Below are positions 2,808-19,278 of a DNA stretch of 64,000 nucleotides, in pieces. This DNA comes from Clostridia bacterium. GTDB taxonomy: Bacteria > Bacillota > Clostridia > Christensenellales > UMGS416. Every line of letters starts with the position of its first letter. The first letter of the stretch is position 1. The notes under the pieces are model-generated. The model ran no database searches. It saw only the letters and a program-made list of their open reading frames with translations, and had not been told where the DNA came from. The translations under genes and the position numbers were made by a program. The DNA is taken from contig JAFGUF010000038.1 of assembly GCA_016938675.1 (NCBI GenBank), positions 1 through 64,000 of the forward strand, in the 5' to 3' direction.

Positions 2808-4802
2808 ATGATAAAACATAAATTCCTGATGATATTTCTCGTACTTGCTATTTGCGCTGCCGCAGGTTGCGACTCTACGGCTACGCCTGTCACAGATGAA
2901 AGCAGCCATATTGATTCAAGTATTGGAGTAACCCCTGAACCGACAGTAAAGCCAATAGCTCATCAAGAAACAGAGAAGCCTACCATCGAGCCCATTGACT
3001 ATCCGCTAATAGACGAAAGCTTTATTAGCAGCAAAGATGATATAAGCTTGAATTTGAATTTCAGTGTATATGCCTATTCAGAAGGCGTGTGGGGAGATGG
3101 AGCGTATAGTTGCATTTGCATCTACTTTAACGATTTTGATGTCGCCTATTATGAAGTAGAACTGGATGGAAGAATATATTCTGTAATTGACGGGTGTCTG
3201 TACCTCAATGAAAAATATCTTAATGTAGTGATTAAGAATTTATATATCAGGGCATATGACTGGAATGATAATATCATTGATGAAAGCAGCTATAAAAATG
3301 TAATGTTTTTTAGCCCCAATATCAGCTCAGAATTAGATGATATTTTATATGCAAAAGACGAACTAACACATTTGTGGGTTGCAGCGCCGGAGTATAACAG
3401 TCATGATGAGTTTAACTCCACATTGAATATGGCGAGCCTGTGTGAATTCGTTTTACTTGAAACTCTGATTCTGAGCAGTAACATAGAATATACCAATTTA
3501 AATGCCAGCGACATAGAAAATCTGCATCGGCTTCATACACTAAGCTTAGGTGTGGAATTGAGTGATTTTAGCTTTTTAACAAAATTGCCCTACCTTACGA
3601 ATCTTGAGATATGGCTAGGTGAGGACTATGAATATGTGAATATCGGAACCATAAAGAGTCTAGAAAAGTTCAGAATAATTTCTTCATATATTTATAAAAT
3701 AAGCCTTCTAGATAATTTCCCAAATTTAAAAATACTATATATTAACTCCGTCAGTCTTCAAAATTTATCAAATATTTCAGATTTAGATAAGCTGGAAGAA
3801 CTATTCTTGATAAACACCGATAACCTGCTAAATGAAAGCCTAAAATCCGTTCCGCCTGATTTGAAAAAACTAATTGTTTATGGCACTGAACGTCCGGACT
3901 ACTCTTTCCTGAAGCTTTTTGGGAATGCTGAGGAATTGCGAATAATCAATACAGACATAATCGATTTATCATTTCTTGAGTTCTATGAAAATTTAAAAGT
4001 CCTAGATCTGAATAGAAGCTATTCATCACTGCATTACAAAGAAAATCTGGACTTAATAAAAGGAAAAACTGATTTAAAAACTCTAATACTGCCGATAGAC
4101 TATTATAATTACTGCGTTGTCTGCAATGATGGCAATAATATGGAGCAAGAAAACAAATTAACCACCCTTTCCTTTCTTGAAAACTTGACTAAATTAGAAG
4201 AACTGGTTATTGATCTTCAGAATGTTGAAGATTTTTCTGAGATGATGCAATTAGATAATTTAAAAGAATTAGTTCTGGCAAATATTTCAGATATATCCAT
4301 GTTCAAAGGGAGGCTGCAAAATTTAAATAGCCTGACTTTACTGAATACTTCAATTTCTGATTTTAGCCCATTGAGAAATCTGAAAGATTTAAAGAAATTC
4401 AATATATATGAAAACTATTTCTACGATGCTTCAGGATATATAGATTATGATTATCCGCTTGATTATTCGTTTTTATCGGAACTTACCAAACTAAAATACA
4501 TACGTCTGTATAATTTCAACATGTACGTTCAATTAAAAGATGATAAGCTACCGGATTTTAGAAATCTTAAAGAGCTCGCCGTGGTAGAACTAAGCAGCCT
4601 TATGTGTTCAGACATAAGCGGGTTATTCAACGCTCCGAATATAGAAACCATACTCTTAATAGAATTTGAAGTGAACAACCTAAATGGTATAGAAAATCTG
4701 AAAAATCTCAATGTACTGAACCTAAGCTGGTCCCCTGTAGGTAATGAAGTACTGGATATGGTTAGGTCAGCCTTCGGCAACGACCTGATAATCCTACAAT
4801 AA
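2808..4802 (+). CDS. Leucine-rich-repeat surface lipoprotein
   Basis: A 664-residue secreted lipoprotein. The signal peptide ends at Cys21 in an AAGC lipobox, and a Thr/Pro/Glu-rich spacer (about 25-65) follows. A beta-rich domain to about residue 170 leads into a long array of irregular internalin-like leucine-rich repeats of the type LxxLxxLxLxxxxIxDxSxL. Such repeats usually bind proteins on the cell surface. AGAGGTG precedes the start. It is transcribed away from the ExbB operon and followed after 119 bp by another secreted-protein gene. The ligand is unknown. Confidence 0.8.
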   Translation: MIKHKFLMIFLVLAICAAAGCDSTATPVTDESSHIDSSIGVTPEPTVKPIAHQETEKPTIEPIDYPLIDESFISSKDDISLNLNFSVYAYSEGVWGDGAYSCICIYFNDFDVAYYEVELDGRIYSVIDGCLYLNEKYLNVVIKNLYIRAYDWNDNIIDESSYKNVMFFSPNISSELDDILYAKDELTHLWVAAPEYNSHDEFNSTLNMASLCEFVLLETLILSSNIEYTNLNASDIENLHRLHTLSLGVELSDFSFLTKLPYLTNLEIWLGEDYEYVNIGTIKSLEKFRIISSYIYKISLLDNFPNLKILYINSVSLQNLSNISDLDKLEELFLINTDNLLNESLKSVPPDLKKLIVYGTERPDYSFLKLFGNAEELRIINTDIIDLSFLEFYENLKVLDLNRSYSSLHYKENLDLIKGKTDLKTLILPIDYYNYCVVCNDGNNMEQENKLTTLSFLENLTKLEELVIDLQNVEDFSEMMQLDNLKELVLANISDISMFKGRLQNLNSLTLLNTSISDFSPLRNLKDLKKFNIYENYFYDASGYIDYDYPLDYSFLSELTKLKYIRLYNFNMYVQLKDDKLPDFRNLKELAVVELSSLMCSDISGLFNAPNIETILLIEFEVNNLNGIENLKNLNVLNLSWSPVGNEVLDMVRSAFGNDLIILQ

Positions 4803-7312: not shown

Positions 7313-7335
7313 AAGGCCGCTATTTTAGCGGCCTT
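7313..7335 (+). terminator. Intrinsic terminator after the phosphatidyltransferase gene
   Basis: Perfect ten-base arms AAGGCCGCTA and TAGCGGCCTT with a TTT loop, followed by TTAATTTT. Confidence 0.9.
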
Positions 7336-7452
7336 TTAATTTTACTTCATTTCATTATTGCACCTATTCTTATAAAAAAATCTCAAACAATTATGGCATA
7401 TTTTACCTAAGTATTGTATAATGTATTTTGTATTATATCTGGGGAGAAATAT

Positions 7453-8772
7453 ATGAAAAAAACAATGACTATAATCAGCCTAGTGCTCATATGCGTCCTC
7501 GCACTTGGCGCACTTGGCACAGTGGGATACTACGCCTACACCTACTCAAACACGCTAAAAGAATATGAGGCGATGGAGCAGGAAAAAACCATTGCAGTAG
7601 ATGACGGAGAAATCTACGCAAACCCACTGGAGCGCGTCAAAGACGTGGAAATGGTTAAGGATACATACTCGCAGTACACATATGTATATGAGCGGGACAA
7701 CATACACTTTTTAAGCAATGTGGACGCGTGGAACGTTGAAAACCTGGCGCTGCTTGCAGATGAGCTCTATGCCAACAAGCACGGCGAGGAAATAGACTAC
7801 GTATCAACAGTGATATTAAATGAAGGAACAGACGGCGAATACGCGGGAACGCATTCCAGAAACCGCGAGACCTTCCTAATCCCTGTGGGGCTATATGATT
7901 TCCTTCCCAATTCAAAATTCCAGGCTAAAACAATGCTGGCCGAGATAAACCTATACGGCGCGGAGGAATACACAACAGTCGATGAGATGGCAGTTGTGCT
8001 AAGCCATGAGTACGGCCACCATTTCACATATTATCATTTCGGCCTTACATTCTCCGATCTGGACAAAAAAACAGAATACTATAAGCTAAGGTCGCAGAAC
8101 ACCGACAAAATAATTCTGGATACAGGCGAACGCCAGGAATATCTGGACAACCATATGTGGTTTCTGGTGGAATACGCTGCCGAAGACTATGTATACTTCC
8201 TCGGCTCTGAAAAGGCGCACCGCATAGTGGAATTCCTCGATACAGCAGATCAAGTCGGCATCTACGCCCGGGGCGGCGACTCCGCTCTTGAAAAGGTGAA
8301 CAGCAATTATGAATTCTGCAGGAACGGCTCGCCCCATGAAAACGTGAGCGGCGGCCTGCCGGACGAGATTGACGGGCTGGAAGAATACTTCTACAGCTTC
8401 ATAGATGAAGAGCCGCCCGTGCACGAGGAGCGAGAGCCCCTCGGAACCCTTAACCTGAAGATGACCAAGCCAGGCTCGAGGCAGCATAAATTCACATGGG
8501 ATACGCCCTATAAAGACAGTAATATAATATATACTCTGATACTTTACAGCGAAGATGACGAAACGCAGTACATGGTTCGCACAAGGACAGGAGATGAAAA
8601 AGGCGTTGCCAATTTCGGCTACTACACACATCAGATAACAAAGGGCAACTGGATATATACATACTCCCTTGGCTGGGACCTAGACATCGGCACAAAGATG
8701 CGCGCCCGCGTGAGCATAGTGTTCCCCGACGGAAGCGTGCTCCTATCTGAACCTTTAGATTTTGAATACTAA
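7453..8772 (+). CDS. Membrane-anchored HEYGHH putative zinc metalloprotease, paralogue 1
   Basis: A 439-residue protein with an N-terminal membrane anchor (about 5-28) and an exported body. HEYGHH at 185-190 matches the HExxH zinc motif. Glu240 and Glu244 in the downstream segment EYAAEDY are candidates for the third ligand. A conserved HGEE motif lies near 110, a PHENV motif before the last third, and a beta-sandwich-like C-terminal domain (about 325-439) ends the chain. GGGGAG precedes the chosen start and TATAAT lies at 7417-7422. It heads a cluster of four paralogues interleaved with lipoproteins. I do not recognise a named peptidase family; activity is inferred from the motif. Confidence 0.7.
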   Translation: MKKTMTIISLVLICVLALGALGTVGYYAYTYSNTLKEYEAMEQEKTIAVDDGEIYANPLERVKDVEMVKDTYSQYTYVYERDNIHFLSNVDAWNVENLALLADELYANKHGEEIDYVSTVILNEGTDGEYAGTHSRNRETFLIPVGLYDFLPNSKFQAKTMLAEINLYGAEEYTTVDEMAVVLSHEYGHHFTYYHFGLTFSDLDKKTEYYKLRSQNTDKIILDTGERQEYLDNHMWFLVEYAAEDYVYFLGSEKAHRIVEFLDTADQVGIYARGGDSALEKVNSNYEFCRNGSPHENVSGGLPDEIDGLEEYFYSFIDEEPPVHEEREPLGTLNLKMTKPGSRQHKFTWDTPYKDSNIIYTLILYSEDDETQYMVRTRTGDEKGVANFGYYTHQITKGNWIYTYSLGWDLDIGTKMRARVSIVFPDGSVLLSEPLDFEY

Positions 8773-8808
8773 AGGTAATTAAAAGTACACCATATACAAG
8801 GAGCGAAC

Positions 8809-9627
8809 ATGAAAAGCAAGATTAAATATATTCCGGTTCTCTTTATACTGGCTGCGATTCTCGTGCTTTCCGGCTGCACAAAGCTTGATATAACTGCATC
8901 CATTGACAAAGATAATAACGTAGATTATACATATAAAATAACAGTGACAGGCATCGAAGATGACGACATAAACCGTGCTGAGATCAAATCCTACCTGGGT
9001 AAAATCATGATGCACTGGAAAGGCGCAGGGTTTACATCGTCGCTTATAGAGATTGACAGCGGATTCGAACTGACGGCCGCAATGAGCGGGCACTATGAAT
9101 CTCGCGAGGAGGCCTTCGCTGCGCTGTATTCATTTATGACAAATGAAGTGTCGCCATTTACAGACGTTGAGTACGATTATAACCTGAACTACTATTATGA
9201 GGATTATTACCTGAGCGCTGGGCTGGACCTTGAGAACATGATCGATGATGACATCTACACCGTATACCCAAGCACCGTCGGCGCAGATGTGGATGAATTC
9301 CTCAGCGACTTTAAATGCGACGTTACATTCAGTCTGCCTTCAAATGAAAGCAAAGAATCCGACGAAGTAATCCAGAAAACTGTAAATGAAAGCATCTCTC
9401 TTGATGCGCCGGAGGAGATATACCTTTCGGGTATCATCAACAATAATGTCAATGCGCGCTATGAGCAGGATCTGATTGAGCGGCGTGCAAAGGAGAAGAT
9501 GATTATTATTGTTGCGTCCTGTGCTTCGGTGCTTGCGATTGGTATTATAGTGCTTTTAAGCCTAAAGCTTAAGCGGCGTAAAAAAGCGGACTCAGAAGAG
9601 ATTGATTATAAGGATATAGAGATATAG
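8809..9627 (+). CDS. LppM-like lipoprotein with C-terminal membrane anchor, copy 1
   Basis: A lipobox LSGC places the lipidated Cys at position 23. The next residues, with alternating polar and hydrophobic positions, resemble the start of LppM-type domains. The domain runs to about residue 215. A second membrane segment (about 229-252) and a basic, then acidic, tail follow, so the protein would be tied to the membrane at both ends. AAGGAG precedes the ATG. It lies 36 bp after the first HEYGHH gene and is probably cotranscribed. It has a full paralogue at 13736 and a 3' remnant at 14549. Confidence 0.7.
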   Translation: MKSKIKYIPVLFILAAILVLSGCTKLDITASIDKDNNVDYTYKITVTGIEDDDINRAEIKSYLGKIMMHWKGAGFTSSLIEIDSGFELTAAMSGHYESREEAFAALYSFMTNEVSPFTDVEYDYNLNYYYEDYYLSAGLDLENMIDDDIYTVYPSTVGADVDEFLSDFKCDVTFSLPSNESKESDEVIQKTVNESISLDAPEEIYLSGIINNNVNARYEQDLIERRAKEKMIIIVASCASVLAIGIIVLLSLKLKRRKKADSEEIDYKDIEI

Positions 9628-9668
9628 GCGGCATGGCCTAATATACTGATTGTAGGAAGCAAAGAATA

Positions 9669-10997
9669 ATGAATCAAAAAGCTAAATTTATTTTAATATT
9701 TGTAGTACTTTTACTCATTGCTTTTTCCGGAATATTTTATTTTTGCAAGGAATACCCTGAATACAGCGAGAATTCCCAAGCTCTTTCTCTGCTGCTGCAA
9801 AAAAAGCTGACAGCAGCAGAAATAAAGCAGGAATTTGAGAATACGACTACAAAATATCATAACAATGAAATTGAAAAACGCACTATTTTCGGTTATAACT
9901 ATTCCTATGTAAAAGACGGTATTTATTTTTTAAGTGTGACTCCGTATTGGGATGAGCAGGAACTGCAGGCTTTAGCCGAGGAGCTTTATCAAAACAAACA
10001 TGGCGATGAAATCAACTATCTGGATAAAGTAATTGTATACGGCACAAGCGATGGTGTCACCGCCGGCTCCCACTCGCGTTCAATTTACGGCTATGAAGTG
10101 CCTGTTTCTTTTTACGGCTTTATTCCTGAAAATCTCACGTTTGATTGTCTATATGAAAAAAGCACAATCAATATCTATGGCGTTAGTGATGAAACAAAAA
10201 TTGAGGATTTGGCAATTGTGCTGAGCCATGAATATGGGCATCATTTTACGTATCACAATTTTGGCCTTTCCGGCAGCGCGGCCGACCGCAACACGGAGTA
10301 CTATAAATTGAGGTTTGATAAAGACTATGATGTTATACTCGACAGAGAATACTACGAGGACTATCTGGAAAACCACAAATGGTACCTTTCCGAAATTGCC
10401 GCTGAGGACTACGTATATTTAATGGGCTCAGAAAACACCTTTAAAGTTCAGAAATTCTATGATAATGCCGATAAAGCCACACTGTATAATGCAGGCAAAA
10501 TTGTCTTCCTGACCCTTATTAATTATGACTATAAGTTATGCAAAAACGGGATGCCCCACGAGAATGTATCCATTCCCCTGCCCTATGAGACGGAAGGATT
10601 GGCAGATTACTTTTACAGCTTTGTTGACGATGAATACTCAGTGGTCATCCCCGATCAACCAATAGGCACGCTTAATCTGACCGGGACTCCAAATGGCGCA
10701 AGAACACAGCACATATTCACATGGGATCAGCCATTTACCAGCCATGACGTTGCATATACTGTCATCGGATACGATATGGATGATAATGTTGTAATAATGC
10801 TAAAAACCACGCGCGGTGATGAAAAAGCTGTAGCAGGTATAGGTGTATTTGGCGGCTGGATGAATCCGTTTACTATACCTGACAAGGATTTGCATGCATT
10901 TACTTATGAACCAGGCAAAAAAATGAAATTCCGGGTTTCAGTATCGTTCCCAGACGGGCTGGTATTGCTTTCTGACCCAATAATCATTACCTACTAG
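9669..10997 (+). CDS. Membrane-anchored HEYGHH putative zinc metalloprotease, paralogue 2
   Basis: This 442-residue paralogue of the 7453 protein has the same order: membrane anchor (about 6-26), HGDE motif near 111, HEYGHH at 187-192, SEIAAEDYVY with Glu242 and Glu246, PHENV, then the C-terminal beta domain ending in PDGLVLLSDPIIITY. All putative zinc-site residues are kept, so it should be as active as paralogue 1. The ribosome binding site is weak (AGGA about 12 bp upstream). It lies between an LppM-like gene and two motif-less paralogues. Confidence 0.7.
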   Translation: MNQKAKFILIFVVLLLIAFSGIFYFCKEYPEYSENSQALSLLLQKKLTAAEIKQEFENTTTKYHNNEIEKRTIFGYNYSYVKDGIYFLSVTPYWDEQELQALAEELYQNKHGDEINYLDKVIVYGTSDGVTAGSHSRSIYGYEVPVSFYGFIPENLTFDCLYEKSTINIYGVSDETKIEDLAIVLSHEYGHHFTYHNFGLSGSAADRNTEYYKLRFDKDYDVILDREYYEDYLENHKWYLSEIAAEDYVYLMGSENTFKVQKFYDNADKATLYNAGKIVFLTLINYDYKLCKNGMPHENVSIPLPYETEGLADYFYSFVDDEYSVVIPDQPIGTLNLTGTPNGARTQHIFTWDQPFTSHDVAYTVIGYDMDDNVVIMLKTTRGDEKAVAGIGVFGGWMNPFTIPDKDLHAFTYEPGKKMKFRVSVSFPDGLVLLSDPIIITY

Positions 10998-11048
10998 CGG
11001 ACATCCGCCGGAAGCTTGCTTAATTATTAATCTATATGGAGATAAAAG

Positions 11049-12362
11049 ATGAAGAATAGTAGTTTTTTAATTATATTTTCTGTTCTTGCTATACTTGGTG
11101 CCGCAGCAATCGTTGTTTTCTCGTTTTCATTATTTAGTTACATAGACGCAAAGTCCTCACTGGATGGTTTCCTTTCTGCAGCAGACCATATTAACGAATC
11201 AGTAAAATATTCCGAACACCTGCATGAGAACAAAAAACCTGTAATCGGAAGTTCTACTGACTATTCAGAATATCTGTATTCAATCGAGGAAGAAGGTGTT
11301 GCTTTCCTAAGTGAATTGGATTTTTGGAACGATTCAATGCTGAATGCTCTTGCGGGAGAATTCCTAGGGAATACTCACGGAGATGAAATGAAACTTATTT
11401 CGGAAGTCATCATCAGCAGCGAAGCGGAACAACCCCTATCTGCCGAATTAGCACCTTCATATCTTTCATTTGATATTCCGCTGATTCTCAATGATTTTTT
11501 TAGTGCAGATTCATTATACAAGCTTACCTATAGGAGAAATTCGATCATTATTTACGGCTGCAATGAAGAAACTGACGTGAGAGATACCGCATTTGATTTA
11601 AGCCGTGCTTACGGAGAGTATTTTGTCAAATATTATTTTCGTTTATCAGGAACTAGCGATGATACGTGGCAAAAATATTACCGGTTAAGAGCAAAAAACT
11701 ATGATCAGGTAATCACAGACATGAGCCGATATGACGGCAGCGAAACAAACAAAAAATGGTGCCTTATAGAAATTGCCGCCAATGACTACGTATTTTTTAT
11801 GGGCTCACCCAGCACAAAAGAAGTCTACGCTTTCTATGACAGCACATGGAAGCCTGAAATATACCGGAACAACAACGATAAACTTGATAATCCCTATTAT
11901 CTTGAATGCAGAAATGCCACACCTCATTCAAATGTGGCAATGCCGCTTCCGAATGAGGTTATCGGACTGGCTGATTACTTCTTCCACTTTGTCGGCCAGG
12001 TTGCGCCTGAGTATACTGAAGTAGAAAGCCTAGGTACATTAAACTTGAAAATGGAAAAGCCTGGCATAAATCAGCACTATTTCACCTGGGATCAGCCCTA
12101 TACAGGGGATGGCATCTGCTATACACTAATAGGCTATGATACAGACGACAACGCAGTAGTCATGGTTGCTACAAACTTTCGCCAACATGAAACAGGCAGC
12201 GCACAACTTGGCAAGTACAGCGGCAGACAATACCGCGATATTCAGGAAGACAAAAAGATAAATTTTTATTATGAAGAAGGCGCGCAGATGAAATTCAGAA
12301 TCAGCATTACTTTCCCTGACGGAACAGTTGTGCTTTCAGATCCCATTATCATCACTTATTGA
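11049..12362 (+). CDS. Membrane-anchored paralogue 3, zinc motif lost (pseudoprotease-like)
   Basis: This 437-residue protein aligns along its length with the proteins at 7453 and 9669, including the membrane anchor (about 7-31), HGDE near 110, PHSNV and the C-terminal beta domain. The zinc motif is replaced by RAYGEY (186-191), and the AAED segment reads AAND. It therefore cannot bind zinc in the same way, yet the frame is open and the rest of the fold is kept. It may be a substrate binder, decoy or regulator of the intact copies. GGAG precedes the ATG. Confidence 0.7.
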   Translation: MKNSSFLIIFSVLAILGAAAIVVFSFSLFSYIDAKSSLDGFLSAADHINESVKYSEHLHENKKPVIGSSTDYSEYLYSIEEEGVAFLSELDFWNDSMLNALAGEFLGNTHGDEMKLISEVIISSEAEQPLSAELAPSYLSFDIPLILNDFFSADSLYKLTYRRNSIIIYGCNEETDVRDTAFDLSRAYGEYFVKYYFRLSGTSDDTWQKYYRLRAKNYDQVITDMSRYDGSETNKKWCLIEIAANDYVFFMGSPSTKEVYAFYDSTWKPEIYRNNNDKLDNPYYLECRNATPHSNVAMPLPNEVIGLADYFFHFVGQVAPEYTEVESLGTLNLKMEKPGINQHYFTWDQPYTGDGICYTLIGYDTDDNAVVMVATNFRQHETGSAQLGKYSGRQYRDIQEDKKINFYYEEGAQMKFRISITFPDGTVVLSDPIIITY

Positions 12363-12387
12363 TAAAAAAGTTAATAAGGAGATAAAG

Positions 12388-13707
12388 ATGAAAAACACTA
12401 AATTAAACCTACTAAATATCTGTATACTATTAGCGGCAGTTTCTCTGCTTTGTGCTTTGCTGGCTATGCTTATAGGCACCAGCTATGCATATCCTGAAGA
12501 TACTGAAAAGCTGGATTACAGCAAAAAAAGCTATGCCCAGATAAGTCTTAGCTATATCAATGAAGAAAAGCAGCGGTCCCATAAACTGAACGATTTCAGC
12601 TACTTAATGGCATACAAAAATGAATATATTTATAATGATATTCACTTCCTAACTTCCTGCGAAGACTGGGATGCCACTCTGATGTCAAGTGCCGCCATTG
12701 AACTATTCAGTAATTCCCACGGGGACGAAATCAAATATGTTGAAGCAGTTATATTTGAGCAGGGAAGCGGAATACACTATGGCAGCAATTACGAAAGCAT
12801 ATACGATCCCAATGAAATACCTCTCTACATTTTCGGCTTTTTGCCGGAAGACAGCTGTTTCTATGATACATATGAAAAAGGTATTCTATATATTTACAAT
12901 GTGGATTCAAAAACTACCGCTAGGGATATTGCCCAGGCAATGAGTACAGCATACGGCTACCATTACACTCACTACTATTTCGGATTGAACGGCAATAATA
13001 AAGATAAAGATACCGATTACTATAAGCTGCGCAGCGCAGGCAGCAGTGAGCTGAAAGTCGATTTCATTGATAATGCGGACTATTTGGAGAATAACAACTG
13101 GTTTCTTTATAAAGTTGCCGCAAATGACTATATGTACCTGATGGGCTCAAAAAACGCGAGACGAACCGAGAAGTTCGGAAAATTCGGCAAGGGTACAATG
13201 CTCTTTGATGGAGTCTATGAGGCTCTGCAGCATAATTTCAGATACTGCCTCAACGCAACACCACACAGCAATGTCTGCATTGAAATGCCTCACAGAGTTG
13301 ATGGACTAGCGGACTATTTCTATAGCTTCATTGATGTTGACACTCCCGAATTTACTGTGCACGAGCCAATAGGTGACCTTAATATGCGGGTTAAAGCGGA
13401 CAGCAGAATGAAAAATATCGAAGTATATTGGGACACTCCCTATAAGGATTCAAATGTTATATATACACTGGTTGCATATGATTCATCAAATGAGATAGTA
13501 TCTATCGTAAACACCATAGATGGAACACAAGAAGGCCATGGTAAATTTACCGAGAAATATGAATTTGGAATTTTTGCCGATTACGCCAGGAGAGAGTATT
13601 ACTATATGACTCAGAGCTTCAAAGAGGACAATATAAGAATATTTAGAGTTCTTATTACTTTTCCTGATAAAACAGTAGAGGTATCTGATCCCCTGATACT
13701 GAACTAA
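12388..13707 (+). CDS. Membrane-anchored paralogue 4, zinc motif lost (pseudoprotease-like)
   Basis: This 439-residue paralogue has an N-terminal anchor (about 8-30), HGDEIKYVEAVI, and TAYGYH (187-192) where the intact copies have HEYGHH. KVAAND stands where they have EIAAED, so both candidate metal-ligand sites are gone. PHSNV and GLADYFYSF are kept. The start at 12388 is chosen for AAGGAG 6 bp upstream; an earlier in-frame Met would overlap the previous gene. It lies 25 bp after paralogue 3 and 28 bp before an LppM-like gene, consistent with one operon. Confidence 0.7.
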   Translation: MKNTKLNLLNICILLAAVSLLCALLAMLIGTSYAYPEDTEKLDYSKKSYAQISLSYINEEKQRSHKLNDFSYLMAYKNEYIYNDIHFLTSCEDWDATLMSSAAIELFSNSHGDEIKYVEAVIFEQGSGIHYGSNYESIYDPNEIPLYIFGFLPEDSCFYDTYEKGILYIYNVDSKTTARDIAQAMSTAYGYHYTHYYFGLNGNNKDKDTDYYKLRSAGSSELKVDFIDNADYLENNNWFLYKVAANDYMYLMGSKNARRTEKFGKFGKGTMLFDGVYEALQHNFRYCLNATPHSNVCIEMPHRVDGLADYFYSFIDVDTPEFTVHEPIGDLNMRVKADSRMKNIEVYWDTPYKDSNVIYTLVAYDSSNEIVSIVNTIDGTQEGHGKFTEKYEFGIFADYARREYYYMTQSFKEDNIRIFRVLITFPDKTVEVSDPLILN

Positions 13708-13735
13708 TAATAATTTAAAACTTAAAGGAGCAGCA

Positions 13736-14548
13736 ATGAAAAAGAAAATAATATTAACAGCCATCATCTTAATGACTATATTCGTGTTTTCCGGCTGTGC
13801 GGATATATGGATTGATGCGGAAATTACGCAGGATAATCTGGTTACCTATTCATATATCCTGAATTTTACCGGGCTTGATAAAGATGACCCTAACTATGGC
13901 CAGCTAGAGCTATTCCTACTGGATATACAACGGTATTGGGAACAAAACGGTATTATCTGCAGTACCGATATAACTGACGAGAGCATAGTGCTGACAGGAA
14001 CAATGCAAAGGCAATGCGCAGACAGAGAAGAGGCATTTAATACGCTTTATGAATTTATGACAAATAAGATAACGCCATTTGAAAGTGTCACACTTAATTA
14101 TAACAGCGATTTTTATTCGTCCAGCTATATTCTGGATGCAGCAATTGACCTTTCAGGCGTACTGGACCAAGAGGTCTACGAGGTTCATCCCCAGCTAGTC
14201 ATTGATGATATTACGGAGTTTCTGCAAAACAGCAAATGTACAGCGGTATTTACACTGCCATACAGTGAAACAGCAGACAGCAAGGAAGTGATTCCTAAAG
14301 AAACAATAGTAAATATACCTCTTGACGCTCCGGTAAAAATATCGATAAGCGGCTCTGCGGCAAGCATTGAAAACATGCAGATTGAAAAAAACCTAATGCT
14401 GAAAGTTAAGACTCAAAGAGCCTTAATCATTATTTCTGCGGTATCAGCGGTAGGTGCAGTTGCAGCGCTTATAATACTTATTATGAATAAAAAATGGAAA
14501 ACCAATTTGGGCTTGGCTGAAGAAAGCAAGGATACAGAACAGCAATAA
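13736..14548 (+). CDS. LppM-like lipoprotein with C-terminal membrane anchor, copy 2
   Basis: A 270-residue paralogue of the 8809 lipoprotein. Its lipobox FSGC puts the lipid on Cys21. The domain keeps the REEAFNTLYEFMTN and ITPFESV motifs shared with copy 1 (REEAFAALYSFMTN, VSPFTDV). A second membrane segment (about 223-245) and a polar tail end it. AAAGGAG precedes the start. Directly after its TAA, in the same frame, lies the 3' end of another copy (14549-14689), so the present C-terminus may be the product of a recombination between paralogues. Confidence 0.7.
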   Translation: MKKKIILTAIILMTIFVFSGCADIWIDAEITQDNLVTYSYILNFTGLDKDDPNYGQLELFLLDIQRYWEQNGIICSTDITDESIVLTGTMQRQCADREEAFNTLYEFMTNKITPFESVTLNYNSDFYSSSYILDAAIDLSGVLDQEVYEVHPQLVIDDITEFLQNSKCTAVFTLPYSETADSKEVIPKETIVNIPLDAPVKISISGSAASIENMQIEKNLMLKVKTQRALIIISAVSAVGAVAALIILIMNKKWKTNLGLAEESKDTEQQ

Positions 14549-14751: not shown

Positions 14752-15846
14752 ATGAATAAAAAACGTATACGCAAATTCATCCCTGCACCATGGCTTTATA
14801 TAGACCAATTTGAGAAATGGATTAATGATTTAGCAGCACAAGGTCTGTATATAATTAAAACAAACTGGCTGTTTGCAACATTGAAAAAAACTGAGCCCTA
14901 TGAGGGCACTATACGACTAAATATATATCATGAAACCGAAAGTCCCCTTGATAATGGAAAAAATAAAAGAAATAACAAATCAAAACTTAAGGTCAGCTAC
15001 ACAAGCTATGATTCCCCTTCTGCTGTTCCTGCTAGAAAGGAAAGTGAGCGATCTATTCTAGTCAATGACTGCAACCGTAGTATTGGGTCATTGACCTTTA
15101 TGATTTTTTTATTACTATCTCTTTTTATTACTAGCATTTCTCCATATTTCGAATCAAGAGTATATTCAGATATGCTAAATGTATTTACTCAATTGAGCGG
15201 TGCTGCTTTTGCGGCTGTAAGTGTAGCCTTATGCGTCCGCAAGGCAATGGAATATCTAAAGCTAAAGCGATATTATAAAGGCAAGCCAAACATGGATACA
15301 CCCTACAGACAACATTTCGTCAGAGATCGTATAATTATATTTTGTATTTTGATTCTTTTATTTGTTCTATCAGCTGAGACTTCAAAAGCTGCAAATTACG
15401 AAATATTTAGCAACGAAGCCTATGCGAAAAATGAACCGATTTTAATAACCTATGAATTATTAAATAATCAGCCTATTGAAGATGATGAATATTCAACAGC
15501 AAACTATTCTGTTTATTATCAGGAATCTAAATCATTGATTCTACTTCCTTTCGGCTATGATATTGAATATACAAGCAGCAGCAACATGAAGGAATTATCA
15601 CATATTTCTTATGTTCGCCTACGATATAAAGGACTGATAGATAGGTGCTATTTATCCTTTGTGAAGAATAATTACGCGGAAGACTTAGTTATTACTTATA
15701 ATGATTATTTCGAGAAGATAGCGTATTTCTATAAGGAAGGCGTTACATATTTATTTATGATGAATGATAAAGAAGGTATTTACATTGCTTATTCAGGCGA
15801 AAGTACCGCAGAATACATAATTGATAAAATAACTCAAATGAAATAG
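14752..15846 (+). CDS. DUF2812-like membrane protein
   Basis: The N-terminal part, with FIPAPWLYIDQFEKWINDLA followed by a Gly-Leu-Tyr turn, has the layout of DUF2812 domains, found in Firmicutes next to PadR-type regulators. Membrane segments lie near 112-130, 145-163 and 193-210, and an extracytoplasmic C-terminal domain of about 150 residues follows. AAAGGAA precedes the ATG. It closes the HEYGHH/LppM cluster. No PadR gene is adjacent. The family call rests on the N-terminal pattern only, and the function is unknown. Confidence 0.5.
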   Translation: MNKKRIRKFIPAPWLYIDQFEKWINDLAAQGLYIIKTNWLFATLKKTEPYEGTIRLNIYHETESPLDNGKNKRNNKSKLKVSYTSYDSPSAVPARKESERSILVNDCNRSIGSLTFMIFLLLSLFITSISPYFESRVYSDMLNVFTQLSGAAFAAVSVALCVRKAMEYLKLKRYYKGKPNMDTPYRQHFVRDRIIIFCILILLFVLSAETSKAANYEIFSNEAYAKNEPILITYELLNNQPIEDDEYSTANYSVYYQESKSLILLPFGYDIEYTSSSNMKELSHISYVRLRYKGLIDRCYLSFVKNNYAEDLVITYNDYFEKIAYFYKEGVTYLFMMNDKEGIYIAYSGESTAEYIIDKITQMK

Positions 15847-17497: not shown

Positions 17498-19123
17498 TTA
17501 CGGAAGCGTAATTTTAACCTGCATCTCATCGCCCGGCTTATCCAGTATCTCAATATTTATGCCGCTTGCCGATGTGTATTCATCGTCGCCGCCTTTGTAG
17601 AAATAATGGTCATATGTCTTCTGATAATTGAAATTGGCGCTGTATAGGTTATGCGTTCCATTGGCCTCAATCAGCATAACGCCGTATTCGTTTTCGTTGT
17701 CGTTTATATCATTGTTGTAGAATCTCTTGGAGCTGCTAACTACGCTCTTGTTTACATACCATATTGCTATGCCCGGGCTGTCAAGATACATCTCAAGCCC
17801 TTCTCCGAAGCCGTCGAAGTCCACATTTTCCAGCAGGTAGTATCCATCTCCGTCATCAATTTTAACAATATTATATTCGTCCGAAGAGCGAGCATGCAGG
17901 GTGTATGTTCCGTCGCTTGTTATAACTTCCGGCTCAATAAAGCCTAAGTATTCCCTTTCCCACGCGGTGAGCGGAGCGGGCGTCGTGCCATATGGATTAT
18001 AGCCAATGCTGTTGTCGCAGCCTCCGGCCATCAGGCAATGGAAGGCCAGCCCTTCGCTGGAATAATCCGTGTCGTACAAATCCGGAAGGTCTATGGCGTG
18101 GCCTAGCTCGTGGCACAGCACGCCAATAGCCACAATCTGGTCGCCCTCTTCATTATAGGGGTCTTTTTCCGCGGTGTATATGCATTCGCCTATCTCAACG
18201 CCGTCTATCTCCAGATAATAATCATACTCAAGCGAGCAGGAATACGTGGATATATCCAGGTCAAATTCTTCATATGCCTCATATCCGGCGAAAACGAAAA
18301 GTACGGTCAGCTCCTTTGGGTCAATGATGCCGTCACCGTCCTTGTCATATTCTCCGTAGTCAATATAATCATCAGTCATTGTAAGCACCTGCTCGAAGAA
18401 ATCATATCCCTCGCTGTAATAGTCATCCTCACTGCGGGAGAAATTGAAGCTGGGGTGCTTCATATTAAGATCCAGCGATATTATTCCGTCACCTGACTTT
18501 CCGCTGGTTTCATCCGCCGGAACAAAGGAAAATGTGCCATTGCTGGATGCCCTGTAATAGTCATCTACGCTGCCGGTTTCGTAATAGCCTTCTCCATATA
18601 GTATATCGTACCAGTCCAATGCGTCCGAAGACATCTTTTCATCATTGAATGAAAGCAGGAATGTCAAAATGGGCGTCTCGGAGAGCAATTCGCCGCCTGA
18701 TTGCGTGCCGCTGTAGCTGGAATCGGCGCCGCCTATGCCAAGGGAGCCCTTGTCGCTGTCATCTGAGTCCGCTTTCTCCGCTTTCTCATATTCCATTATG
18801 TCTTCATCTGCCCAGTAGTCATCTTCTGTGTCGGCGTATTCATCAATGAAGTCTCCGGCGTTCCTTATAATCTCGAAAACTATGACCCCAATAAAAGCAA
18901 AGGCTGCAAGGAAAAAAAGCACAAGGAATATAATAAGCCCTGTGTGCTTTTTGCGCACTGGCCTTGTGGGCCCATCATTGAGCTGATATGTCTGCTCGAA
19001 GCTGCTTACATCGCTGCTGTTTGTGCTCTGGCTTTCAGCTGCCTGAGCTCCTATTGGCTTGCCGCATTTGCTGCAATATCTATCGTAATATTTGACTTTG
19101 TTTCCGCAGTATTTACAATACAT
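17498..19123 (-). CDS. Membrane-anchored M6-family metalloprotease with zinc ribbon
   Basis: A 541-residue protein. An N-terminal zinc ribbon (CKYC and CSKC pairs, about 3-21) is cytoplasmic, and a membrane segment lies near 62-84. After an acidic linker comes an M6/immune-inhibitor-A-like peptidase domain with HELGHAIDLPDLYD (His338 and His342). An acidic loop DKDGDGIIDPKEL before it may bind calcium. M6 enzymes cleave host or surface proteins, usually as secreted forms; this one stays on the membrane. The start at 19123 follows AAGGAG and puts the ribbon at the very N-terminus; the upstream Met has no such site. Confidence 0.85.
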   Translation of the reverse strand: MYCKYCGNKVKYYDRYCSKCGKPIGAQAAESQSTNSSDVSSFEQTYQLNDGPTRPVRKKHTGLIIFLVLFFLAAFAFIGVIVFEIIRNAGDFIDEYADTEDDYWADEDIMEYEKAEKADSDDSDKGSLGIGGADSSYSGTQSGGELLSETPILTFLLSFNDEKMSSDALDWYDILYGEGYYETGSVDDYYRASSNGTFSFVPADETSGKSGDGIISLDLNMKHPSFNFSRSEDDYYSEGYDFFEQVLTMTDDYIDYGEYDKDGDGIIDPKELTVLFVFAGYEAYEEFDLDISTYSCSLEYDYYLEIDGVEIGECIYTAEKDPYNEEGDQIVAIGVLCHELGHAIDLPDLYDTDYSSEGLAFHCLMAGGCDNSIGYNPYGTTPAPLTAWEREYLGFIEPEVITSDGTYTLHARSSDEYNIVKIDDGDGYYLLENVDFDGFGEGLEMYLDSPGIAIWYVNKSVVSSSKRFYNNDINDNENEYGVMLIEANGTHNLYSANFNYQKTYDHYFYKGGDDEYTSASGINIEILDKPGDEMQVKITLP

Positions 19124-19278
19124 GTTATTCTCCTTGTAAAAGTCCATACGTCATTATTTTATATTTTGAATCTTTATTTCGTTTTCTGCTGTATATATAT
19201 TATTTTACCACATAAGATACCTCATTAAACGGAAAAAATGTTCATTATGATATATATATTATTCTGTTTTTCTAATGT

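Follow-up and report, generated by a model that had tools for sequence, protein, structure and literature searches.

Why would a bacterium keep, in a single run of genes, membrane-anchored putative proteases with an intact zinc motif next to paralogs that have lost it? This question is raised by a locus at positions 7453–14548 of a 64,000-nucleotide stretch (hereafter, the window) of the genome GCA_016938675.1 of a gut-type Firmicutes, Clostridia bacterium (contig JAFGUF010000038.1; order Christensenellales). An earlier reading of the DNA, made from the sequence only, described four paralogous membrane-anchored proteins of 437–442 amino acids (aa), two of them motif-less, and proposed a protease/pseudoprotease surface system. 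With slightly more confidence than doubt, we favor the reading that the locus encodes a zinc protease of the cell envelope whose partner or target is a lipoprotein similar to LppM of Mycobacterium tuberculosis. Copies 3 and 4 would be pseudoproteases, retained because they bind these partners but do not cut them. What stood of the earlier proposal was a zinc-protease-like surface family with two motif-less copies still under constraint; its argument from a paired loss in the AAED segment did not, and the LppM-type lipoprotein partner had been missed.

Gene organization

The locus consists of six genes, all on the + strand:

7453–8772, + strand: copy 1, putative membrane-anchored zinc protease, 439 aa (open reading frame, alignment, AlphaFold2 [AF2] model, and match to fibronectin type III [FN3] structures)
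8809–9627, + strand: lipoprotein A, 272 aa, with lipobox LSGC, a predicted LppM-fold domain, and a C-terminal transmembrane helix
9669–10997, + strand: copy 2, putative zinc protease with intact motif, 442 aa (open reading frame, alignment)
11049–12362, + strand: copy 3, motif-less paralog, 437 aa (open reading frame, alignment)
12388–13707, + strand: copy 4, motif-less paralog, 439 aa (open reading frame, alignment)
13736–14548, + strand: lipoprotein B, 270 aa, with lipobox FSGC, a predicted LppM-type domain, and a C-terminal transmembrane helix

The intergenic gaps are 36, 41, 51, 25, and 28 bases, and a consensus scan found no strong + strand terminator inside the run. All four protease frames are open and align end to end, and each is preceded by a purine-rich ribosome-binding site, in agreement with the sequence-only reading. 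Identity to copy 1 over the full length is 43% for copy 2, 35% for copy 3, and 32% for copy 4, with collinear motifs, and the presence of four paralogs is far beyond chance. The range 7453–13707, previously taken as a four-gene stretch, also holds the unmentioned gene of lipoprotein A, and that of lipoprotein B follows it. The list of four was incomplete as well: a fifth protease with intact motifs and its own lipoprotein gene is located on another contig of the same genome (contig 1, C1:6192-7499), and a sensitive profile search of the genome returned exactly five protease copies.

The run reads as two units, the first comprising copy 1 and lipoprotein A, and the second comprising copies 2, 3, and 4 and lipoprotein B. 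Lipoproteins A and B are 36% identical, while A shares 19%–26% identity with the other lipoproteins compared; since A is closer to B than to any other of these, the arrangement fits a duplication of the whole module.

Pairing with LppM-type lipoproteins

Protease and lipoprotein profiles were searched against 396 genomes of the host order. Strong protease matches were found in eight of them and strong lipoprotein matches in the same eight, always adjacent, and none of the other 388 genomes contained a strong full-length lipoprotein match, that is, there were no strong orphan lipoproteins. Because some of these genomes contributed to the lipoprotein profile, the independent test is provided by the lack of strong orphans and by three held-out pairs, two of which were recovered at 6e-33 and 7e-32 and the third, a head-to-head pair, at 4e-27. 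Three arrangements occur: the lipoprotein gene follows the protease gene on one strand, the two genes converge with overlapping ends (tail-to-tail), or they diverge (head-to-head). Survival of the pairing through these changes in orientation points to a shared function and not to a frozen operon. In one branch of the protease family, the lipoprotein stands beside the protease in every genome examined, and it is likely a functional partner of the protease.

The structural model of lipoprotein A (predicted local distance difference test score, pLDDT, 83) had M. tuberculosis LppM (PDB 2nc8) as the best match in both fold programs (Foldseek, 1.4e-6; Z 9.6 with a root-mean-square deviation of 3.3 over 146 residues, the next best match having Z 5.9). 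The window lipoproteins are thus predicted to have the same fold as LppM (Rv2171) despite only 14% identity. Pfam family PF21946 was matched by 7 of 20 members of the lipoprotein family (best 1.2e-11), and the window genes themselves do not match it. The lipobox cysteine C23 is almost invariant in the family, and a C-terminal helix is seen both in the alignment and in the model, where a single long helix (residues 213–270) includes a stalk ahead of the membrane segment. The model also weakly resembled (Z 4–6) the N-terminal domain of M1 aminopeptidases and the zinc protein ZrgA, which could be a chance likeness or a hint that the lipoprotein serves in the manner of an accessory domain of a protease.

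The stalk suggests a different division of roles, in which the protease is a sheddase that cuts the LppM-type protein between its folded domain and the C-terminal transmembrane helix, changing its location, while copies 3 and 4 serve as shielding decoys. The constancy of the gene pairing in three orientations would agree with this, as would the title of a paper on M. tuberculosis LppM (listed among the references of PMC6151718), which ties domain composition to dual localization; the latter is reportedly a sign of processing. However, the lipoprotein alignment revealed no conserved cleavage site in the stalk, lipoprotein B would have to be shared by one active copy and two inactive ones, and we know of no such protease for mycobacterial LppM. 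We regard shedding as rather unlikely.

Predicted metal site, domain structure, and surface location

The AF2 model of copy 1 (pLDDT 88) comprises an anchor helix (residues 2–46), a catalytic domain of mixed alpha/beta structure (about 75–320) that carries the HExxH helix (176–196) and the Glu240 helix (238–250), and a C-terminal beta domain (324–439) that matches FN3 structures with Z up to 8.9. The motif positions in the four copies are as follows:

8005–8022, + strand: copy 1, HEYGHH (residues 185–190), intact putative zinc motif
8170–8172, + strand: copy 1, Glu240, proposed third zinc ligand, conserved in 32/32 intact members aligned
10227–10244, + strand: copy 2, HEYGHH
10392–10394, + strand: copy 2, Glu242
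11604–11621, + strand: copy 3, RAYGEY
11769–11771, + strand: copy 3, Glu241 (third ligand position), kept
12946–12963, + strand: copy 4, TAYGYH
13111–13113, + strand: copy 4, Lys242, replacing Glu

These motifs are as the sequence-only reading described them. The survey of other genomes for a similar mix of active and inactive copies, proposed there, showed that HExxH is present in copies 1, 2, and 5 and in all 74 further distinct members whose motif could be read (one additional match, a 117-residue fragment ending short of the motif, is outside the 74), and absent from copies 3 and 4. In the 32 aligned intact members, H185, E186, H189, and E240 are unchanged. E240 lies 51 residues past the second histidine, on a following helix. 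The alignment makes it likely that the zinc site is formed by HExxH with E240 as the third ligand. Glu244, also considered as a ligand, was ruled out because intact members differ there: one relative from the same taxonomic family has N, and others have D, S, A, or F.

In the second segment, copies 1 to 4 have EYAAED, EIAAED, EIAAND, and KVAAND, respectively. The change of AAED to AAND in copies 3 and 4, pointed out earlier, is real, but the first Glu (240) was lost in copy 4 only, and the loss at two distant sites cannot be taken as a sign of one metal site because position 244 is uninformative. Of the four residues, copy 3 kept only E240 (both histidines and the catalytic Glu are gone), whereas copy 4 kept none.

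Sequence searches of Pfam, NCBIfam, and PDB returned no protease family above the cut-off. Assignment to the metzincins (HExxHxxGxxH, with the third His 10 residues after the first) was rejected: copies 1, 2, and 5 have H, N, and Y, respectively, at position 195, position 192 holds a residue other than Gly, and Pfam M43 and reprolysin matched only with E-values of 0.002–0.007. The nearest curated relative is the HExxH metalloprotease family MYPU_1760 (NCBIfam NF045830), presumably named after a Mycoplasma pulmonis protein. It was weakly matched by 10 of the 34 members scanned (best E 2e-6); the scores among the matches listed, which align over or near the HExxH region, were 15–20 bits, well below the curated cut-off of 175, and the window copies scanned gave no match. 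We know of no pairing with LppM for this family. Phage origin was also rejected, with no informative match to PHROGs and a single distant relative among 2.9 million viral contigs. A literature search with HEYGHH, MYPU_1760, or "LppM domain" retrieved no relevant paper from the collection searched.

The other branch of the protease family, found in Bacillus, Cohnella, Thermincola, Epulonipiscium, and others, is marked by a signal peptide and by the lack of a nearby lipoprotein, and several of its members are fused to S-layer (SLH), CWB2, copper-amine-oxidase-N (Cu_amine_oxidN1), or transglycosylase SLT modules. The anchoring or surface modules of both branches point to a location at the cell surface, and the window proteases are probably oriented outward. 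Fusions of the catalytic domain were recorded in Bacillus and Clostridia (L032, L033, L041, L026, L048, and L024). Judging from these sequences, the proteases would represent an unnamed, widespread family of surface zincin-like proteins that would merit a Pfam entry.

Probable retention of the motif-less copies

Copies 3 and 4 are sisters (support 92/86) within a clade of copies 1–4 (100/99) and have A186 (E186A) and N244 in common; therefore, a single loss of at least the catalytic Glu probably preceded their split. Thirty-three alignment columns are conserved in at least 85% of the intact members. At the catalytic positions 185, 186, 189, and 240, seven of eight cells were lost in copies 3 and 4, compared to 10 of 58 elsewhere (Fisher p = 2e-4), and these 10 non-catalytic losses were mostly conservative. 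The loss is focused on the metal site. Both copies kept W93, E104, N108, H110, G111, E113, Y187, and G188, as well as R213, D245, Y246, G251, and N297.

Between the two copies, 70% of residues differ, and their frames of more than 430 codons are still open; neutral frames of such length are expected to acquire about five stops at 0.1 random hits per base. Differences between them are fewer at codon position 2 than at position 3 (212 vs 278, p = 4e-6), in line with constraint after the split. Pairwise synonymous divergence (dS) for copies 3 and 4 was undefined (saturated), and no close ortholog of either was found. These comparisons suggest that copies 3 and 4 still evolve as proteins, under a constraint weaker than that between copies 1 and 2. 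In the catalytic domain, copy 3 is 35%–38% identical to copies 1 and 2, vs 48% between the latter two, while in the FN3 domain the corresponding values are 47%–50% and 45%, and the FN3 binding module may be what is kept in copy 3.

Proposed function

In our favored reading, the locus would be a duplicated two-gene module encoding a membrane-anchored, outward-facing, gluzincin-like protease and an LppM-fold lipoprotein with a membrane attachment at each end. The protease would bind zinc and, at the cell surface, act on its lipoprotein or jointly with it. In the preferred picture, the substrate is presented or controlled by the LppM domain, unless this domain is cut itself. The common ancestor of copies 3 and 4 would have lost the catalytic Glu, and the zinc histidines then or later. 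Both copies would have been kept as non-catalytic pseudoprotease subunits, still folding and still in the membrane, where they would most probably associate with the same lipoprotein, or with copy 2 so as to modulate it.

Several points weigh against this scheme. The branches of copies 3 and 4 (1.21 and 1.58) are longer than those of copies 1 and 2 (0.72 and 0.91), which indicates that constraint was relaxed to some degree. Motif-less copies were found in no other genome examined, so that this state has been seen once, in one draft genome. The relatives in the other branch have no LppM lipoprotein nearby, which implies that the protease can work without one. Fold searches of PDB and viral structures with the full copy 1 model returned lists filled by FN3 matches, which are uninformative on the putative zincin fold of the catalytic domain. 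Finally, support for the scheme comes from sequences and models.

The longer branches, the lower catalytic-domain identity (35%–38%, vs 48% between copies 1 and 2), and the restriction of motif-less copies to this genome among those examined would also be expected if copies 3 and 4 were inactivated genes on their way out. This explanation is hard to reconcile with their extensive divergence, all of which would postdate the loss if the loss was ancestral, with the open frames, intact ribosome-binding sites, and position-2 constraint, and with the 13 conserved residues outside the metal ligands kept in both copies, and we consider it unlikely. Still less probable is that the family consists not of proteases but of surface adhesins with an FN3 domain, in which HEYGHH and E240 would make up a site for structure or zinc buffering, and the loss of zinc only shifts binding specificity: the lack of a PDB or Pfam protease family above the cut-off, an activity that is only predicted, and the well-kept FN3 binding module of copy 3 would agree with this, but the Glu of HExxH varies no more than the histidines do, although a site that binds zinc for structure only could dispense with it, and members match, albeit weakly, the curated metalloprotease NF045830.

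Genomic neighborhood

Two putative transcription signals precede copy 1:

7313–7335, + strand: intrinsic-terminator-like hairpin with a 10-bp stem, the strongest + strand terminator-like site of the region (consensus scan)
7393–7422, + strand: putative promoter ATGGCA-18-TATAAT before copy 1 (10/12 consensus match)

The hairpin is the probable end of the preceding transcript. Promoter-like sites occur in the region at a chance-level number, which makes the promoter call weak.

The next gene after lipoprotein B (14752–15846, + strand) encodes a 364-aa membrane protein with weak similarity to DUF2812 (E 0.0016). The gap between them is 200 bases, and the GC content at third codon positions (GC3) of this gene is 0.28 vs 0.39–0.57 in the array. 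A second, unrelated surface metallopeptidase is encoded 3 kb from the array (17498–19147, − strand): a membrane protein of 549 aa that has a zinc ribbon at its N terminus and an M6 peptidase domain of the immune inhibitor A type (PF05547, 2.4e-8). Upstream, at 2808–4802 (+ strand), there is a gene for a leucine-rich-repeat lipoprotein of 664 aa (PF12799, 1.3e-9).

Comparison with known systems

M. tuberculosis LppM has been found to bind phosphatidylinositol mannosides and to influence the acidification of phagosomes (PMC6151718, PMC2936551). The fold is known from this lipoprotein, which affects macrophage infection, and a dedicated zinc protease in many Firmicutes would offer a testable partner. 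As a difference from the mycobacterial protein, phosphatidylinositol mannosides are, to our knowledge, not expected from Firmicutes.

The protease resembles gluzincins of the thermolysin, M48, and M78 types in having HExxH on a helix and a distal Glu, but its zinc geometry is predicted only, and sequence searches gave no match to these families. The family is spread through Bacillota yet has no Pfam or NCBIfam name.

Active proteases accompanied by catalytically dead relatives or partners are known elsewhere, as in ClpP/ClpR and the alpha and beta subunits of the mitochondrial processing peptidase (MPP), and the arrangement in the window is therefore not a new category. Through its inactive tandem copies, the locus provides a natural experiment on bacterial use of dead proteases. 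At the cell surface, the pseudoprotease iRhom controls the metalloprotease ADAM17 (PMC13277793). All these families are unrelated to the proteins described here, whose dead copies are tandem paralogs in one operon with a presumed regulatory role. It is tempting, although the idea is tentative, to see in the locus an undescribed bacterial envelope system in which a new family of zinc proteases, tied to a lipid-binding lipoprotein of the LppM type, would be regulated at the cell surface by tandem pseudoproteases, resembling control of the iRhom/ADAM type.

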